The position numbers and the translations under genes are program-made. The notes under the pieces are model-generated. The model did no database searches, was not told where the DNA came from, and saw only the letters and a program-made list of their open reading frames with translations. From contig NZ_AWWI01000121.1 of NCBI RefSeq assembly GCF_002760615.1, forward strand, positions 186,001-250,000: a DNA stretch of 64,000 nt, given 5' to 3'. Shown here in pieces: positions 9,883 to 16,591 of the stretch (position 1 is the stretch's first letter; every line of letters starts with the position of its first letter). The DNA is from Puniceibacterium antarcticum (GTDB lineage: Bacteria; Pseudomonadota; Alphaproteobacteria; Rhodobacterales; Rhodobacteraceae).

Positions 9883-9908
9883 GGAACCTCACACAGCTTT
9901 GTGACGTT
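9883..9908 (+). promoter_or_regulatory. EcfG-type general stress promoter for the PLDc_N/DUF1328 pair
   Basis: GGAAC at 9883-9887, a 17-bp spacer, then CGTT at 9905-9908. This is the alphaproteobacterial EcfG consensus. It lies 54 bp before the start of the downstream small membrane gene, and the EcfG gene itself is 1.6 kb away. Confidence 0.75.
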
Positions 9909-9961
9909 AATCTGCCAGAAATCCTGACCGACAGTGGCGGGATCAAACAAAGGAACGTCAC

Positions 9962-10153
9962 ATGCTGGAATATGCAGGGCTGGGCGGCCTGATTGTCCTC
10001 GGGCTGGACCTCTACGCGATCATCTCGATCTTCGGGTCCAACCGCAGCACCGGATCAAAGGTGCTCTGGACATTGCTCATCCTCGTCCTCCCGATCCTTG
10101 GCTTCATCATCTGGCTTCTGGCCGGGCCTCGGTCGGTCGGCAGCCGCGTCTGA
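9962..10153 (+). CDS. Small membrane protein with a PLDc_N domain, 63 aa
   Basis: Two hydrophobic helices (about residues 5-24 and 33-53) are joined by the short polar loop GSNRSTGSK. This matches the PLDc_N family, the membrane anchor seen at the start of cardiolipin synthases but also found as a free-standing small protein. No catalytic HKD motif is present, so it is not a phospholipase. AAAGGA lies ahead of the ATG. An EcfG-type promoter lies upstream and the DUF1328 gene 24 bp downstream, so an envelope role under general stress is likely. Confidence 0.85.
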   Translation: MLEYAGLGGLIVLGLDLYAIISIFGSNRSTGSKVLWTLLILVLPILGFIIWLLAGPRSVGSRV

Positions 10154-10436: not shown

Positions 10437-11237
10437 TCAGACCTTGAGCGTTTCTGTTGATGAAAAGAACATCGCCTGGGAAATTGCCGACCGCACCTGA
10501 TCTTCGGAATAGGGTTTCGAAATCAGGAAGGCCGGTTCAGGCCGCTCGCCGGTCAGCAGACGCTCGGGGAAGGCGGTGATAAAGATCACCGGACGATCGC
10601 CAAGCTGGGCGAGGATGTCACGCACCGCATCCACACCCGACGAATTGTCCGCCAGCTGGATATCGGCCAAGATCAGGTCCGGCGCTTCGGATGTGCCAAG
10701 CTTGACCGCACCCTCGCGGGTCCGTGCCACACCTGTAACCCGGTGGCCCAGATCGGCCACGATGCTTTCAAGGTCCATGGCGATGATCGCCTCGTCCTCG
10801 ATGATCAGAACCCGGCCGGAAATGCCGTCTGCCATTTCCTGGCGGGCAACATCCAGCAGCTTTTCGGCCTCGTCATCGCCGATCTGCATGATCTCGGCCA
10901 CCTCGTCGATGGTGAATTCTTCGATCGTATGCAACAAAAGCGCCTCTCGGCTGTTTGTCGTCAGACGCTGGAGATGTTTTTGGGCAGCCGCCCGGGGGCC
11001 TGCATCCTCGGCTTCCACGGGCGCACCTGTGGTGACCCAGATACCGTGGAACATCGCGAACAACCCGGCCTTGGGTGAAGACGCCTCCTCGATGATGCTG
11101 CGGTCGGCCAGAACCGCCTCCAGAGTGGCTGCCGCATAGTTGTCACCACTGCTCTGACTGCCCGTCAGAGCGCGCGCGTAACGCCGAAGGTACGGCAGAG
11201 CAGCGCCAACTTCGCTGCTGAGATCCACCTGTGTCAT
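10437..11237 (-). CDS. phyR: PhyR, anti-anti-sigma response regulator of the general stress response
   Basis: A 266-residue protein. Residues ~1-135 form a sigma-like domain (SL) resembling ECF regions 2 and 4. Residues ~141-260 form a receiver domain with acidic Glu147/Asp148, phospho-acceptor Asp192 (ADIQL) and Lys241 (SKPYS). The FITAFPERLL stretch is the FATGUY signature. On phosphorylation the SL domain binds NepR and frees EcfG. It is divergent from nepR-ecfG, the classical layout. The intergenic region carries an exact GGAAC-N16-CGTT promoter facing phyR, consistent with autoactivation. Confidence 0.97.
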   Translation of the reverse strand: MTQVDLSSEVGAALPYLRRYARALTGSQSSGDNYAAATLEAVLADRSIIEEASSPKAGLFAMFHGIWVTTGAPVEAEDAGPRAAAQKHLQRLTTNSREALLLHTIEEFTIDEVAEIMQIGDDEAEKLLDVARQEMADGISGRVLIIEDEAIIAMDLESIVADLGHRVTGVARTREGAVKLGTSEAPDLILADIQLADNSSGVDAVRDILAQLGDRPVIFITAFPERLLTGERPEPAFLISKPYSEDQVRSAISQAMFFSSTETLKV

Positions 11238-11264
11238 GTTTATTGTCCTTCTTGCACTTTTTCT

Positions 11265-11290
11265 GGAACCAAACGTCTGCAGCGCCAGTT
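11265..11290 (+). promoter_or_regulatory. EcfG-type promoter for nepR-ecfG, overlapping the phyR promoter
   Basis: GGAAC at 11265-11269 and GTT at 11288-11290 (N17 then AGTT). The match is weaker than the opposing one because the base before GTT is A. The two sets of boxes interleave, so both polymerases would compete for the same 32 bp. Confidence 0.55.
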
Positions 11291-11296
11291 AGTTCC
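11272..11296 (-). promoter_or_regulatory. EcfG-type promoter for phyR
   Basis: On the minus strand GGAAC (11296 to 11292), a 16-bp spacer and CGTT (11275 to 11272) match the EcfG consensus exactly. It lies ~35 bp before the phyR start and interlocks with an opposing promoter. Confidence 0.8.
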
Positions 11297-11400
11297 CGAG
11301 AAGAGCGCGGCAAAAGCGGTTTTTTGTCGTTTTCTCATGGCGCTGCGGCGCTGTCGACGGGTTGGGGTGCTGGGGCGCATCCAAAATACAAGGTAAGAGA

Positions 11401-11565
11401 ATGGCGCAGGATCGCAACAAGGCACAGCAGTCACAAGTAATCGATGAAAACCTCAAGCGGGTTTATCAGGACATGCTGGACGAAAAAGTTCCCGACAGAT
11501 TTCTGGATCTGCTCTCTCAGCTGAAAAATCAGCAGGGTGACGGAAATCATGGGGATACAAAATGA
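11401..11565 (+). CDS. nepR: NepR, anti-sigma factor of EcfG
   Basis: A 54-residue protein with the conserved NepR core IDENLKRVYQDMLDEKVPDRFLDLLSQL. These two helices hold EcfG until phosphorylated PhyR takes NepR away. The start at 11401 has AAGGTAAGAG upstream; the frame is open further 5' but without a better site. The TGA overlaps the ecfG start as ATGA, so translation is coupled and NepR and EcfG are made in step. Position between phyR and ecfG is diagnostic. Confidence 0.95.
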   Translation: MAQDRNKAQQSQVIDENLKRVYQDMLDEKVPDRFLDLLSQLKNQQGDGNHGDTK

Positions 11566-12119
11566 GCGGTGATCCCCGTGACGAGATCGTCGAACACCTT
11601 CCGGCGCTGCGTGCCTTTGCGCTCAGCCTGACGCGCAACGGCGCGCTGGCTGATGACATGGTGCAAGACAGCCTGGTGAAGGCCTGGACCAAGATCGACA
11701 GCTACCAGCCTGGCACCAACATGCGCGCCTGGCTGTTCACGATCCTGCGCAACACCTATTATTCCAACCGGCGCAAGGCCGGTCGCGAAGTCGCGGATGT
11801 CGACGGCGTCTACACCGCCTCGCTTTCCGAAAAGCCGGCTCATGACGGCCGCCTGCAGATGACCGATTTCCACGCGGCCTTTGCCAAACTCAACGATGAA
11901 CAGCGCGAGGCGCTTATTCTTGTCGGGGCCTCCGGCTTTTCCTACGAAGAGGCGGCCGGCATGTGCGGCGTCGCTGTCGGCACAATCAAAAGCCGCACCA
12001 ACCGCGCCCGTGCCCGCCTCGCTGAACTCATGCATCTCGACATGGGAGAGGCGCTGGAGATGACCGATGGTGCCACACTTGCGGTGATCTCAGGCAACAG
12101 AACAGCGTCGGTAGGTTAA
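11562..12119 (+). CDS. ecfG: EcfG, ECF sigma factor of the general stress response
   Basis: A 185-residue ECF sigma factor. Region 2 (about residues 12-75) includes [27 protein letters not shown] and the -10 recognition helix [18 protein letters not shown]. Region 4 (about 110-160) has [41 protein letters not shown]. It directs RNA polymerase to GGAAC-N16/17-CGTT promoters. At least five such matches lie within 31 kb here. It overlaps nepR by four bases and is followed after one base by the kinase gene. Confidence 0.96.
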
Positions 12120-12120
12120 C

Positions 12121-13848
12121 ATGATCGCAGCTGCAGGCCCCCGCCCGCTGCCCGGCGGGCTGGCGGCGCGCATCATCGGCTTTTTGTCGATCGCCCTCAT
12201 TCCCCTGGGGGTGGTCGCCTATATGCAGACCGCGCAGCTGAGCGAAGAAACCCGTGCCCGCACGCAGCTCAGCCTTGCCGCACTGACGGAATCCGCCGCC
12301 TCTGGCGAACGTCAGACCATCTTGCGCGCTCTGGGCGCCGCTCAGGCGCTCGGCTCTGCGGCGATCCTGTTTCCGGACGATGACGCGCAGTGTTCCGCCC
12401 TGTTCAAGGAATACGTGACCTCAAAGCCCGGCGTGTCCTTCGCTGGTATCCTGTCCGAGGATGGCATCCTGCGCTGCTCTTCGTCTGGAGAGGTCATCGA
12501 TATCTCGACTTCGCCGAATTTCCAGTTTATCGTCAACAATCCCCATTCGACCGTCCAGTTGAACGAGGCCCCCCGCATCAGCAAGACCGCGGTCCTGATG
12601 GTCGCCGAACCCTTTTATCGCAACGACACCCTCGCAGGTTATGTGGCGCTGTCGATCCCGGCGATCGGCCTGCGTGACAGCGCCTTGCCCGATCCCGACA
12701 GCGATATGGCCGAGTTGCTGACCTTCAACACCTCGGGGCAGGTGCTGTCCTCGCGCTCGCCCCGCGAACACACGGTTGAACTGCTGCCGGATGCGCTCGA
12801 CCTTGCCACCCTGTCGCAAACCACCGCGCAAAGCTTCAAGGCGCGCAGCGCCGATGGTCAGACCCGGATCTTTGCTGTCGCCCCACTGGTGCCCGGGCTG
12901 GTCTACGCGCTCAGCATCTGGCCACAGGACGGCAGCGCTGCCACGGCCGTTCAGGTCAACGATTTTGCCAAGCTGCTGCCGTTCCTCATGTGGGCGGCCA
13001 GCGTCATCGTGGCCTTTCTTGCCATCAACCGTCTGGTGATCCGCCATGTGCGCACGCTCAGCCAGCAGATGCGCAACTTCGCCCGCAACCGCCGTGTGCC
13101 TCAGGTCACGGCCGGCGATCAGATGGCGCTTGAATTGCGCGACATGGAGAGCGATTTCCTGCACATGGCCGACGCCATCCTGCAGGACGAGGCGCAGCTT
13201 GAAAACGCCCTGCGCGAAAAGACGATCCTGCTGAAAGAGGTGCATCATCGGGTCAAGAACAACCTGCAGCTGATTTCCTCGATCATGAACATGCAGATCC
13301 GCCAAAGCGATTCCTATGAGACCCAACAGGTTCTGCGCCGTCTCCAGGAACGCATCCGCGGCCTCGCCACGATCCACCGCAACCTCTACCAGACCGAAGA
13401 TCTGGGCCATGTGGATGCCGGGCGCCTGCTGGACGATCTGATCCATCAGATGTCTCTTGTGGCGGATCAAAGCCCGTCACGCGTCAAGCTTGAGACCAAT
13501 CTTGAGCATGTCGAACTTTACCCGGATCAGGCGGTCCCGCTGTCACTGCTGACCGCAGAGGCGCTGACCAATGCGGTGAAATACATCCGCCCCGATCCGA
13601 ATGGTGCCTCGCGTGTTTCGATCCGCTTCAACCGGGTGGGCGCAAACCGCGCAGTGATCGAGATTTCGAACACCTGCAGCGGAGAGGATTGTGAACCCTC
13701 AAACAGCACCGGGCTTGGCTCGCGTCTGATTCGTGCTTTTTCCACCCAGCTGGGCGGTGAACTTGAACAAGGCGCCATTGACGACATCTATACCGTGCGT
13801 GTCGAATTCACCCTGACCGATTTCATCCCCGAAGCGGGCGATTACTGA
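12121..13848 (+). CDS. Membrane sensor histidine kinase of the HisKA_2/HWE type, probable PhyR kinase
   Basis: A 575-residue kinase. The first membrane helix is at ~17-36, followed by a periplasmic sensor of roughly 240 residues. A second helix lies around 281-306, then a HAMP-like segment. The HisKA_2 dimerisation domain has the motif [12 protein letters not shown], with the phosphorylated histidine at about 376. The ATPase domain has an N-box (ALTNAVKY) and the C-terminal [10 protein letters not shown]. Kinases of this class next to nepR-ecfG usually phosphorylate PhyR (PhyK). It starts one base after ecfG. The signal it senses cannot be read from sequence. Cys96 and Cys119 in the sensor might form a redox-sensitive disulfide, which is speculative. 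Confidence 0.9.
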
Positions 13849-13875
13849 CCGCCCCCGCAAAGGAGCAGCCCCAAG

Positions 13876-14820
13876 ATGAGCGTTTCTCTGATAGATCTCC
13901 CCATGCCCCGCACAAACGCCGGTGAAATCCGCCGCGTTGGGGTCGAGGTGGAACTTGGTGGCCTGTCCGAGGAACGTGTGGCAGAGATCATGCAACAGGA
14001 CCTGGGCGGCGATATCGACACCCGCCCCGAACAGGGGAGTGTCCTGCGTGGCAGCAGCCTTGGCGACGTCGAAGTGTATCTCGACAGCCGCTATTTGGCT
14101 GATGCCGAAACCCAGCTGGAAAAGTGCATCCGCGAAATCGCCGCCGCCGTGGTGCCGGTCGAAATCGTGACAGCCCCGCTGCAGCCTTCCGACATTCCGA
14201 AGCTGGATGCCGTCCTGCAAAGCCTGCGCAGGGCAGGGGCCACCGGCACCAATGCCGGCATCTTTCTCGGCTTCGGCGTGCATTTCAATCCAGAGGTGAC
14301 GGGCACTGATCTCTCCGACGTCCTGCCGATCCTGACCGCCTTTGCGCTGTACGAGGATGCCTTGCGTGACGAGGCGCATATTGACCTGTCGCGCCGCGCG
14401 CTGCCCTTTGTCGATCCCTATCCGCGCGCGCTTGTGGATGCGCTGGCCCGGGGGGGCATCGCGGACATGACCGCGCTCATCGACCTTTACCTCAAAAAGG
14501 CACCGTCGCGGAACCACGCGCTCGATATGCTCGCTTTGTTCACCCATCTGGACCCGGATCGCGTGGGCAAGGTGATGGACCTCAAACCCATCGGCGCGCG
14601 CCCGACCTATCACTACCGTCTGCCCGATTGCCGCATGGACGAGGATGACTGGTCCCTCGCGCTGGAATGGAACCGCTGGGTGACGGTCGAAAAGATCGCG
14701 CAGAATGCCGCCCTCCTGGACCAGCTCAAAGACGGCTGGAAAAAGCACCGCGGCTCCTTCACCTCCCTGCGGGGGGACTGGACCAAGGCCTCAAGGACGA
14801 TGGTGCAGGCAGCTTTATGA
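13876..14820 (+). CDS. Amidoligase-family enzyme in the general stress operon
   Basis: The 314-residue protein fits the amidoligase family of glutamine-synthetase-like ligases. It opens with RRVGVEVELGGLS (the E-x-E metal/ATP signature) and has VEIVTAPLQPSDI and the TGTNAGIFLGFGVHFNPEV strand. Such enzymes are predicted to join amino or amine groups to carboxylates of peptides or small molecules. The substrate is unknown. It lies 27 bp after the kinase gene, and the next gene, a class I amidotransferase-like hydrolase, overlaps it by four bases. The two are a known predicted pair. Placement behind nepR-ecfG-kinase suggests stress-linked expression, which is inferred. Confidence 0.82.
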   Translation: MSVSLIDLPMPRTNAGEIRRVGVEVELGGLSEERVAEIMQQDLGGDIDTRPEQGSVLRGSSLGDVEVYLDSRYLADAETQLEKCIREIAAAVVPVEIVTAPLQPSDIPKLDAVLQSLRRAGATGTNAGIFLGFGVHFNPEVTGTDLSDVLPILTAFALYEDALRDEAHIDLSRRALPFVDPYPRALVDALARGGIADMTALIDLYLKKAPSRNHALDMLALFTHLDPDRVGKVMDLKPIGARPTYHYRLPDCRMDEDDWSLALEWNRWVTVEKIAQNAALLDQLKDGWKKHRGSFTSLRGDWTKASRTMVQAAL

Positions 14821-15578
14821 GCCTGCTCAGCAAGAAACATCGCCCCGTCATCGGTGTCACCGTCTCGCGCAAGTCAGGCTGGCGGATCTATCCGCTGATG
14901 AAGCTCAGCCTCTGGATCGCGGGCGCGCGCTCCGTGCGTTGGCAAAGCGGGTCGGAAAAGGTTGATCTGAACGCAGTTGATGGCGTCATCATCGGCGGCG
15001 GCGACGACATCGCCCCAACGCTTTATGGTGGCGAGTTGCGCATGGGCGTCCGCCTCGATCCCGACCGCGACGCGCTGGAAAAGGCCGTGCTTGAAGGCGC
15101 CTTCGAAAAACGCCTGCCGATCCTCGGGATCTGTCGCGGTTCGCAGATGCTCAACATTGTGCTCGGCGGAAATCTGCATCAGGACGCCTATCGCGTCTAC
15201 GATTCCAAACAATACAAGACGATACTGCCGCGCAAATGTGTGAATGTGACTCCTGACAGCCTGCTCTACCGCACCACGCGGCAGGCGCAGGTCTATGTCA
15301 ACGCGCTGCATTCTCAGGCCGTTGACCGTCTGGGCGATCAGCTACGTGTCGCTGCGCGCGACAGCGGTGGCATGATCCAGGCCATCGAACGCACCACAGA
15401 CCCCTTTGCCATGGGCGTGCAGTGGCATCCCGAACACCTGTTCTACCGCCGCGCCCACCGCCGCATCTTTGCGGCCCTTGCCCAGGCCGCCCGCGCCCAT
15501 GCGGCACAGGTCGGCCAGATCGCCGCGGCCGAGGAAGAGGCCAGCGTCGAAGCCGCGCTTTATGCCTCCGACGCCTGA
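14817..15578 (+). CDS. Class I glutamine-amidotransferase-like hydrolase (peptidase C26 type)
   Basis: A 253-residue protein of the gamma-glutamyl hydrolase type. Signatures are DGVIIGGGDDIAPTLYG, the nucleophile elbow GICRGSQMLNIVLGG with the catalytic cysteine, VNALHSQAVDRLG and GVQWHPEH with the catalytic histidine and glutamate. Relatives cleave gamma-glutamyl bonds, as in PuuD. Its ATG overlaps the amidoligase stop (ATGA), so the two are co-translated. The pair may make and break an amide-linked product. The Ala/Glu-rich tail after residue ~225 is probably disordered. It ends four bases from the convergent PRC-barrel gene. Confidence 0.87.
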   Translation: MSLLSKKHRPVIGVTVSRKSGWRIYPLMKLSLWIAGARSVRWQSGSEKVDLNAVDGVIIGGGDDIAPTLYGGELRMGVRLDPDRDALEKAVLEGAFEKRLPILGICRGSQMLNIVLGGNLHQDAYRVYDSKQYKTILPRKCVNVTPDSLLYRTTRQAQVYVNALHSQAVDRLGDQLRVAARDSGGMIQAIERTTDPFAMGVQWHPEHLFYRRAHRRIFAALAQAARAHAAQVGQIAAAEEEASVEAALYASDA

Positions 15579-15582
15579 GCGG

Positions 15583-16308
15583 TCAGACCGGGATCATGTA
15601 GTAATTGTGCACATCGTGATGCCAGTGCCGCTCCAGCCGGTCGATCTGATCTATCTGCGGCGCCTTCCCCAAGGCTTCGGCATTGGTGTCCAGCACCAGA
15701 TGCCCGCCGCCCGCGCGGTAGCGCAGCACCGAATAGGGCACCACCAGCAGCTTGCCGCTCAGAACCTTGCCATTGTCGATCACCAGATGGGTGATCCGCC
15801 CCGTTTCAGGGTCCAGCAGCAGATCGTCCAGCACGCCCAGTGCGCCGTCGCGGCCAAAGATATCCACCCCCAGCCAGCTTTTTGCCGTCTCGAACCGCTT
15901 CATCGCGGCCTCTGCGCGCGGGTCCCTGTCCGCGTCTTCGGCGTCCGTTTCGGCGTCGATCTCGGCGGCCAGCGCCAGCGGCGCATAGGTCCCGCCAAAC
16001 GGCCCCACAACCAGCGGCGGCAGATTGCTCAGGATCGGAAACAGCGGCTGATGCTCGCCCTCCCAGCGCGGCGCTTGTGCAAACTCCTCGGGCGTCGCCT
16101 TCAGCACCACCTCGGCGGTGTCCACAGTCATCTCCCCGACCAGAGAGGCCGCAACCAGCGCCTGCTGGCTGTCCAGCCAGCCGCCTGTATCCACCATCAG
16201 GTATTTCAGCGCGCCGTCCTGCGCATTGAACAAAAGGTCGGTGATGGGAAAGCGATCTTCGCCCATTCGGGCCTGATATCTGACAAGATCATCGAAACTT
16301 CTTAGCAT
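15583..16308 (-). CDS. PRC-barrel domain protein, 241 aa
   Basis: The protein has two PRC-barrel-like halves. About residues 15-75 contain FPITDLLFNAQDGALKYLMVDTG. About 140-200 contain SWLGVDIFGRDGALGVLDDLLLDPETGRITHLVIDNG. PRC barrels bind RNA or proteins, as in RimM and the photosynthetic H subunit. Free-standing cytoplasmic versions in alphaproteobacteria are often stress-induced. No membrane segment is seen. A GGAAC-N17-GTT promoter candidate faces it, back to back with one for a small membrane peptide. Its exact job is unknown. Confidence 0.8.
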   Translation of the reverse strand: MLRSFDDLVRYQARMGEDRFPITDLLFNAQDGALKYLMVDTGGWLDSQQALVAASLVGEMTVDTAEVVLKATPEEFAQAPRWEGEHQPLFPILSNLPPLVVGPFGGTYAPLALAAEIDAETDAEDADRDPRAEAAMKRFETAKSWLGVDIFGRDGALGVLDDLLLDPETGRITHLVIDNGKVLSGKLLVVPYSVLRYRAGGGHLVLDTNAEALGKAPQIDQIDRLERHWHHDVHNYYMIPV

Positions 16309-16330
16309 TGTGATGCCTCCTTACATCCCA

Positions 16331-16355
16331 AACCCGTGAACAGCCCACGGGTTCC
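16331..16355 (-). promoter_or_regulatory. EcfG-type promoter facing the PRC-barrel gene
   Basis: On the minus strand GGAAC (16355 to 16351), a 17-bp spacer and GTT (16333 to 16331), preceded by G rather than C. It lies ~23 bp before the PRC-barrel start codon. The match is moderate. Confidence 0.5.
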
Positions 16356-16381
16356 GGAACTTGCAAGGTTCCGCGCGCGTT
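16356..16381 (+). promoter_or_regulatory. EcfG-type promoter for the 41-aa membrane peptide
   Basis: GGAAC at 16356-16360, a 17-bp spacer and CGTT at 16378-16381. This matches the consensus fully and abuts the opposing promoter for the PRC-barrel gene. Confidence 0.72.
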
Positions 16382-16412
16382 GAACAGCCAAAGGCAACAT
16401 GAGGAAAGAGCT

Positions 16413-16538
16413 ATGACGACGGACATATTCCTTGCTGGATTGGCCGCTCTCACCCTGATTGCGGCTCTTATCGTGGCGCTTACCAGCCGGCGCGATGTGA
16501 ATGACATGAAGGATGAAGACAGATCCCGCATGGGCTAA
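16413..16538 (+). CDS. Small single-pass membrane peptide, 41 aa
   Basis: The peptide begins MTTDIFLAGLAALTLIAALIV, one membrane helix (about residues 5-23), and ends with a charged tail RRDVNDMKDEDRSRMG. GAGGAAAG lies 7 bp before the ATG. It has its own consensus EcfG promoter and a strong terminator just downstream. This makes a compact stress-controlled unit and argues that the frame is real despite its size. I do not recognise a named family. Confidence 0.7.
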   Translation: MTTDIFLAGLAALTLIAALIVALTSRRDVNDMKDEDRSRMG

Positions 16539-16591
16539 ACGCATTCACATGAAATCTATCTGAGCCGGCGCAAGCTTTGCGTCAGAAAAAG

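Follow-up and report, generated by a model that had tools for sequence, protein, structure and literature searches.

Directly behind the nepR, ecfG and kinase genes of the general stress response, the 64,000-nucleotide stretch of Puniceibacterium antarcticum DNA analysed here (the window) carries an amidoligase gene (AL) and a gene for a C26-type hydrolase (C26). What do these two enzymes do together, and does their position tie them to the stress response? We favour, with a probability of roughly 0.6, a self-contained reversible gamma-glutamyl amide system that has been placed under EcfG in the Rhodobacteraceae. Alphaproteobacterial general stress regulons are mostly lists of proteins with unclear roles, and two conserved enzymes wired to EcfG, whose joint chemistry can be predicted, would provide a direct, testable metabolic output. 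Conversely, the EcfG link would provide a defined inducing condition for the Amidoligase_2/C26 pair, a predicted family for which we found no physiological context in the literature searched.

The locus and its promoters

AL matches the Pfam family PF12224 (Amidoligase_2; 1.2e-48, 252 residues, 166.5 bits, against a cut-off of 22), with its residues 18-269 aligned to profile positions 2-244 of 245. C26 matches PF07722 (Peptidase_C26; 2.6e-46) and has an intact C106-H204-E206 triad that is invariant in 49 sequences. These matches bear out the identities proposed in an earlier, sequence-only reading of this DNA, which was also correct about the coordinates, the plus strand, the gene order, the ATGA overlap and the position after nepR-ecfG-kinase. 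As in the EcfG (PhyR-NepR-sigma EcfG) general stress response, the window has a complete phyR / nepR-ecfG-kinase locus with consensus promoters, and AL and C26 are next in line (Table 1).

Table 1. Genes and EcfG-type promoter sites around the AL-C26 pair, in window positions
Feature	Position	Strand	Basis
EcfG-type site, before small membrane-protein gene at 9962	9883		sequence match
PhyR anti-anti-sigma response regulator, divergent from nepR	10437..11237	-	profile match
Near-consensus EcfG promoter GGAAC-N17-AGTT (AGTT in place of CGTT), before nepR	11265..11290	+	sequence match
Consensus EcfG promoter GGAAC-N16-CGTT, before phyR	11272..11296	-	sequence match
NepR anti-sigma factor, PF18557	11401..11565	+	Pfam
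EcfG-type ECF sigma factor	11562..12119	+	profile match
HisKA_2 sensor histidine kinase, PhyK-like	12121..13848	+	Pfam
Amidoligase (AL), PF12224, 314 aa, glutamine-synthetase fold	13876..14820	+	Pfam
C26 / PuuD-SpuA-type gamma-glutamyl hydrolase, 253 aa	14817..15578 (ATG 14817, stop 15578)	+	Pfam
PRC-barrel protein gene, convergent with C26	15583..16308	-	Pfam
Near-consensus EcfG promoter GGAAC-N16-GGTT, before PRC-barrel gene	16331..16355	-	sequence match
EcfG-type site, before small ORF at 16414	16356	+	sequence match

The AL stop and the C26 start share ATGA, a 4-nt overlap, and the 27 nt between the kinase stop and the AL start contain AAAGGAG and no terminator-like site. AL and C26 share 54-70% amino-acid identity with their near relatives, and the differences fall mostly at codon position 3, a pattern from which both are judged to be genuine genes, constrained at the protein level. 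The C26-PRC-barrel order is shared with Salipiger and Palleronia.

Published EcfG promoters consist of GGAAC and a flexible -10 box, GGTT and TGTT included (PMC7083833, PMC6599016), and the motif used in this analysis is that published one. The promoter before nepR is predicted to drive nepR-ecfG-kinase-AL-C26. Three strict sites lie in 6.5 kb, against 0.12 expected at the genome-wide rate, which places AL and C26 within an EcfG island. Across the genome the motif shows no enrichment, its 101 sites comparing with 142 of the reversed pattern, and is informative only by its position upstream of genes. Two small open reading frames widen the stress island on either side, each preceded by a consensus EcfG promoter: one at 9962, encoding a 62-63 aa membrane protein (with its promoter, 9883-10153), and one of about 41 aa at 16414 (with its promoter, 16356-16539). 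The EcfG-type promoters of nepR and phyR overlap almost totally on opposite strands (11265-11296), so that transcription in the two directions may involve competition for a single site.

The bond probably made and broken

The predicted AL model (pLDDT 93.5) resembles glutamine synthetases, which occupy all of the top VIA-align rows (Z 13.2, 216 residues, rmsd 3.8); the same list also holds a 1-naphthylamine gamma-glutamylating enzyme. In Foldseek, YbdK and glutamine synthetase ranked first at an E of about 0.002, and no match fell below 0.001. The Pfam scan found no PF00120 (Gln-synt_C) match in AL, and comparison with the genome's own glutamine synthetases gave no significant profile similarity, hhalign aligning only a GxGxHxN stretch (E 0.18). 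The homology of AL to glutamine synthetase therefore rests on structure, and, given both the missing profile similarity and the Foldseek values, the glutamine synthetase substrate is not transferable to AL. Twelve AL residues are invariant: E24, E26, D70, E96, N138, R173, R212, D217, R242, H246, R248 and E272. The C26 model (pLDDT 93.5) lies nearest PuuD (6vtv, E 1.3e-20), Lin1909 and SpuA, and all amidotransferase subunits rank below PuuD and SpuA. Since another full-length C26 protein, as well as five Gln-synt_C proteins, is encoded elsewhere in the genome, AL-C26 is an additional system.

Further information on the bond comes from relatives in which the breaking enzyme has been exchanged. 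At five loci (L040, L104, L113, L119 and L121, from Roseibaca, Roseinatronobacter, Natronohydrobacter and a relative), AL has no adjacent C26, and no AL-type C26 was found in these genomes or records. All five carry an AIG2-like protein directly upstream of AL. The four copies scanned (L104, L113, L121, L040) exceed the cut-off for PF06094 (GGACT, the AIG2-like gamma-glutamylamine cyclotransferases), and the L119 copy, 69-76% identical to them, was assigned by homology. At the sister loci L101 and L102, from Pararhodobacter-like genomes, an AIG2-like gene lies on the other strand and C26 is retained, which looks like an intermediate state of the exchange. C26 and AIG2/GGACT family enzymes both cleave gamma-glutamyl bonds, so the exchange narrows the bond made by AL to one that is most likely gamma-glutamyl. 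Together with PuuD and SpuA as the nearest structures, the AIG2-like replacement makes a gamma-glutamyl amide the likeliest product. The AIG2-like proteins beside AL (L101, L102, L104, L113, L119, L121, L040) have an N-terminal hydrophobic segment.

The make-and-break interpretation already offered from the sequence alone thus stands as the likeliest. As an ATP-dependent ligase, AL would couple an amine to the side-chain carboxylate of a glutamyl group, and C26 would hydrolyse the resulting gamma-glutamyl amide and give the amine back. Under stress, the pair could reversibly mask or store an amine, such as a polyamine, an amino acid or a related metabolite; alternatively, the benefit could be a gamma-glutamyl compatible metabolite. 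Ligase and hydrolase acting at once would be a futile cycle unless they are separately controlled. We infer co-transcription, the gamma-glutamyl chemistry and its reversibility.

Ligase and hydrolase are closely tied to one another. Of 149 genomes, 21 encode an AL-type C26, and all 21 have AL (on a separate contig in G083); one further, weak match in G089 has less than half the score. The hydrolase is thus almost never found without the ligase, a co-occurrence near 1:1. Among 94 adjacent pairs, 89 overlap, 55 of them by exactly 4 nt, with start codons picked automatically. Such tight pairing and translational coupling are typical of a complex, and C26 also matches PF00117 (GATase). Both features would suit C26 as a glutaminase subunit whose freed ammonia is used by a complexed AL to amidate a carboxylate, as in MurT-GatD, where two genes likewise make up a unit that forms amides and one partner resembles class I amidotransferases, or in other class I amidotransferases. 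However, AL matches no Mur ligase model in the Pfam scan, and the structures nearest to C26 are the stand-alone hydrolases PuuD and SpuA. Moreover, the Roseibaca/Roseinatronobacter clade has lost the AL-type C26, while AL persists there beside an AIG2-like enzyme, and such an enzyme does not donate ammonia. A glutaminase role for C26 is therefore unlikely.

Less probable still is a macromolecular target (protein tag, peptidoglycan or surface polymer), to which the pair would ligate a peptide or amino acid and from which it would remove it. Iyer et al. are said to have proposed such a role in 2009 for members of the wider group of glutamine synthetase-like amidoligases, and a cell-wall proposal for phage versions is repeated elsewhere (PMC10580990). 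Yet there is no peptide substrate gene, the window pair has no cell-wall genes beside it, and the relatives of C26 work on small gamma-glutamyl compounds. A third partner gene was rejected, none being recurrent among 79 neighbours outside the family. Earlier suggestions of a cell-wall modification, or of a signal sensed by the kinase, found no support.

Probable recruitment into the EcfG regulon

The reversible gamma-glutamyl amide system that we favour also requires a link to EcfG, and this link recurs. Among the best 80 of at least 563 relatives, a set whose fractions describe near relatives only, EcfG lies inside the 10-kb flanks at 34 named loci (35 of 81 including the window), and in about 40% of relatives, after dereplication, the distance to phyR, nepR or ecfG is no more than ~10 kb. 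Linked loci occur in Roseivivax, Salipiger, Thalassococcus, Pseudooceanicola, Palleronia, Sulfitobacter algicola, Rhodophyticola, Maliponia, Roseovarius confluentis and others. Their geometries vary: AL may follow the kinase immediately or at a distance of 1.5-3 kb, may lie on the far side or be oppositely oriented, or may stand beside phyR. An AL tree of 121 rows requires 9 changes of linkage, against 33 for shuffled labels, and every one of the 13 members of the window's clade is stress-linked. PF12224 was found in 23 of 149 family genomes; PhyR exceeds its cut-off in 20 of these 23, against 43 of the 126 others (p=2e-6, uncorrected for descent), and is absent at that cut-off from the remaining three.

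The clearest signal comes from the promoters of relatives' AL genes. We searched 112 loci, after removal of near-identical copies, for the strict motif GGAAC-N16/17-CGTT at most 120 bp upstream of AL. It was present at 8 of 19 loci that are linked and not directly behind the kinase, at 6 of 48 unlinked family loci, at 1 of 19 loci directly behind the kinase and at none of 26 outside or divergent loci, while 359 permutations of the two boxes gave about 0.1 loci on average and 3 at most. Read-through and an own promoter therefore appear complementary, which we regard as the strongest evidence for functional EcfG wiring: control would be exerted by read-through from nepR-ecfG-kinase in the window genome and by an own EcfG promoter in other species. 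The true sites all start at -33 to -49; for those at -33/-34, transcription would be expected to start near the start codon, so leaderless AL messages are likely. In Palleronia and Rhodophyticola, where the motif stands at -33 to -40, the predicted start is likewise at or close to the ATG. Stress control of AL is not universal, since 42 of the 48 unlinked family copies have no strict site within 120 bp and three AL genomes lack a PhyR above the cut-off. The sequence-only reading had named the lack of genomic co-occurrence beyond this strain as evidence against its proposal; the EcfG link passes that test, since it recurs in other strains.

Outside the Rhodobacteraceae, the AL-C26 pair is present at 21 of 23 alphaproteobacterial loci, and no stress genes lie within about 8 kb of AL at any of the 23. 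The pair would thus be an old, portable unit that already existed when the general stress regulon of one bacterial family captured it. To describe it as built into the stress operon, as had been done, is too strong for a pair so widespread without such linkage; recruited is the better word. In the congener G067, only a few bases separate the sequence that matches window positions 10437-13852 from the one that matches 16323 onward (82% identity); the stress operon is whole, and the block 13853-16322 with AL, C26 and the PRC gene is cleanly missing. Because Salipiger shares the AL-C26-PRC order, a deletion in G067 seems likelier than an insertion in the window genome, and the pair is dispensable in the G067 lineage.

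This clean absence, like the lack of linkage in the rest of the class, is what favours regarding the pair as a chance member of a stress-gene island, which read-through would transcribe and which would have no stress role, but the own EcfG promoters where AL is not directly behind the kinase and the recurrent linkage in varied geometries, with so few changes on the AL tree, make this improbable. We return, then, to a gamma-glutamyl amide system recruited by EcfG. A broader proposal, that EcfG switches on the synthesis and turnover of a gamma-glutamyl amide new as a stress metabolite, with the chemistry kept through the C26/AIG2-like exchange and repeated EcfG rewiring, is more tentative, and we would put it at slightly under even odds.

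In a metagenome-assembled genome labelled Oceanospirillaceae (L108), an EcfG-like promoter accompanies an AL-C26 pair of the Rhodobacteraceae type. This genome groups within the Rhodobacteraceae on the tree, is probably misbinned and was set aside as evidence outside the class.

Relation to known systems

The pair had been put forward as the best candidate for an undescribed system; it is not undescribed as such, being already known as a kind (Pfam PF12224). Iyer et al. in 2009 reportedly described Amidoligase_2 genes whose neighbours encode, in proteobacteria, a glutamine-amidotransferase-like thiol peptidase or, in Firmicutes, an AIG2-family cyclotransferase. The window pair comprises the same two families in the same arrangement, and the AIG2 alternative is seen in its relatives; it differs in its link to the EcfG regulon and in that the C26/AIG2-like exchange takes place inside one bacterial family. 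PuuA/PuuD and SpuI/SpuA likewise combine a glutamine synthetase-fold ligase for a gamma-glutamyl amine with a C26 hydrolase that cleaves a gamma-glutamyl amide, and PuuD and SpuA are nearest in fold to the window C26. In contrast to these systems, AL is not a Gln-synt_C protein and there is no oxidase or dehydrogenase step: no PuuB oxidase or PuuC dehydrogenase stands beside the window pair, whose neighbours are stress genes and the PRC-barrel protein.

Three aspects are new here: the wiring to EcfG, the way in which read-through and an own promoter complement each other, and the exchange of one breaking enzyme for another inside a single family. In the literature searched, we found no published EcfG regulon containing an amidoligase, and no earlier report of the EcfG wiring of the pair or of the within-family partner exchange. 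The repeated wiring of AL-C26 to the stress switch points to a branch of the stress response that acts through small molecules and has so far been uncharacterised. A role in anti-phage defence was rejected, as neither AL nor C26 matched the known defence protein models of PADLOC.

Among the neighbours of the pair, one protein cluster of PotA-like ABC ATPases comprises 14 loci, although it may only pool ABC ATPases. At one locus outside the family (L150:9280-11987), a sortase gene stands next to the AL-C26 pair, together with another large gene, and VWA-domain proteins are also among the outside-family neighbours; sortase and VWA neighbours are reminiscent of the marine proteobacterial dedicated sortase system.
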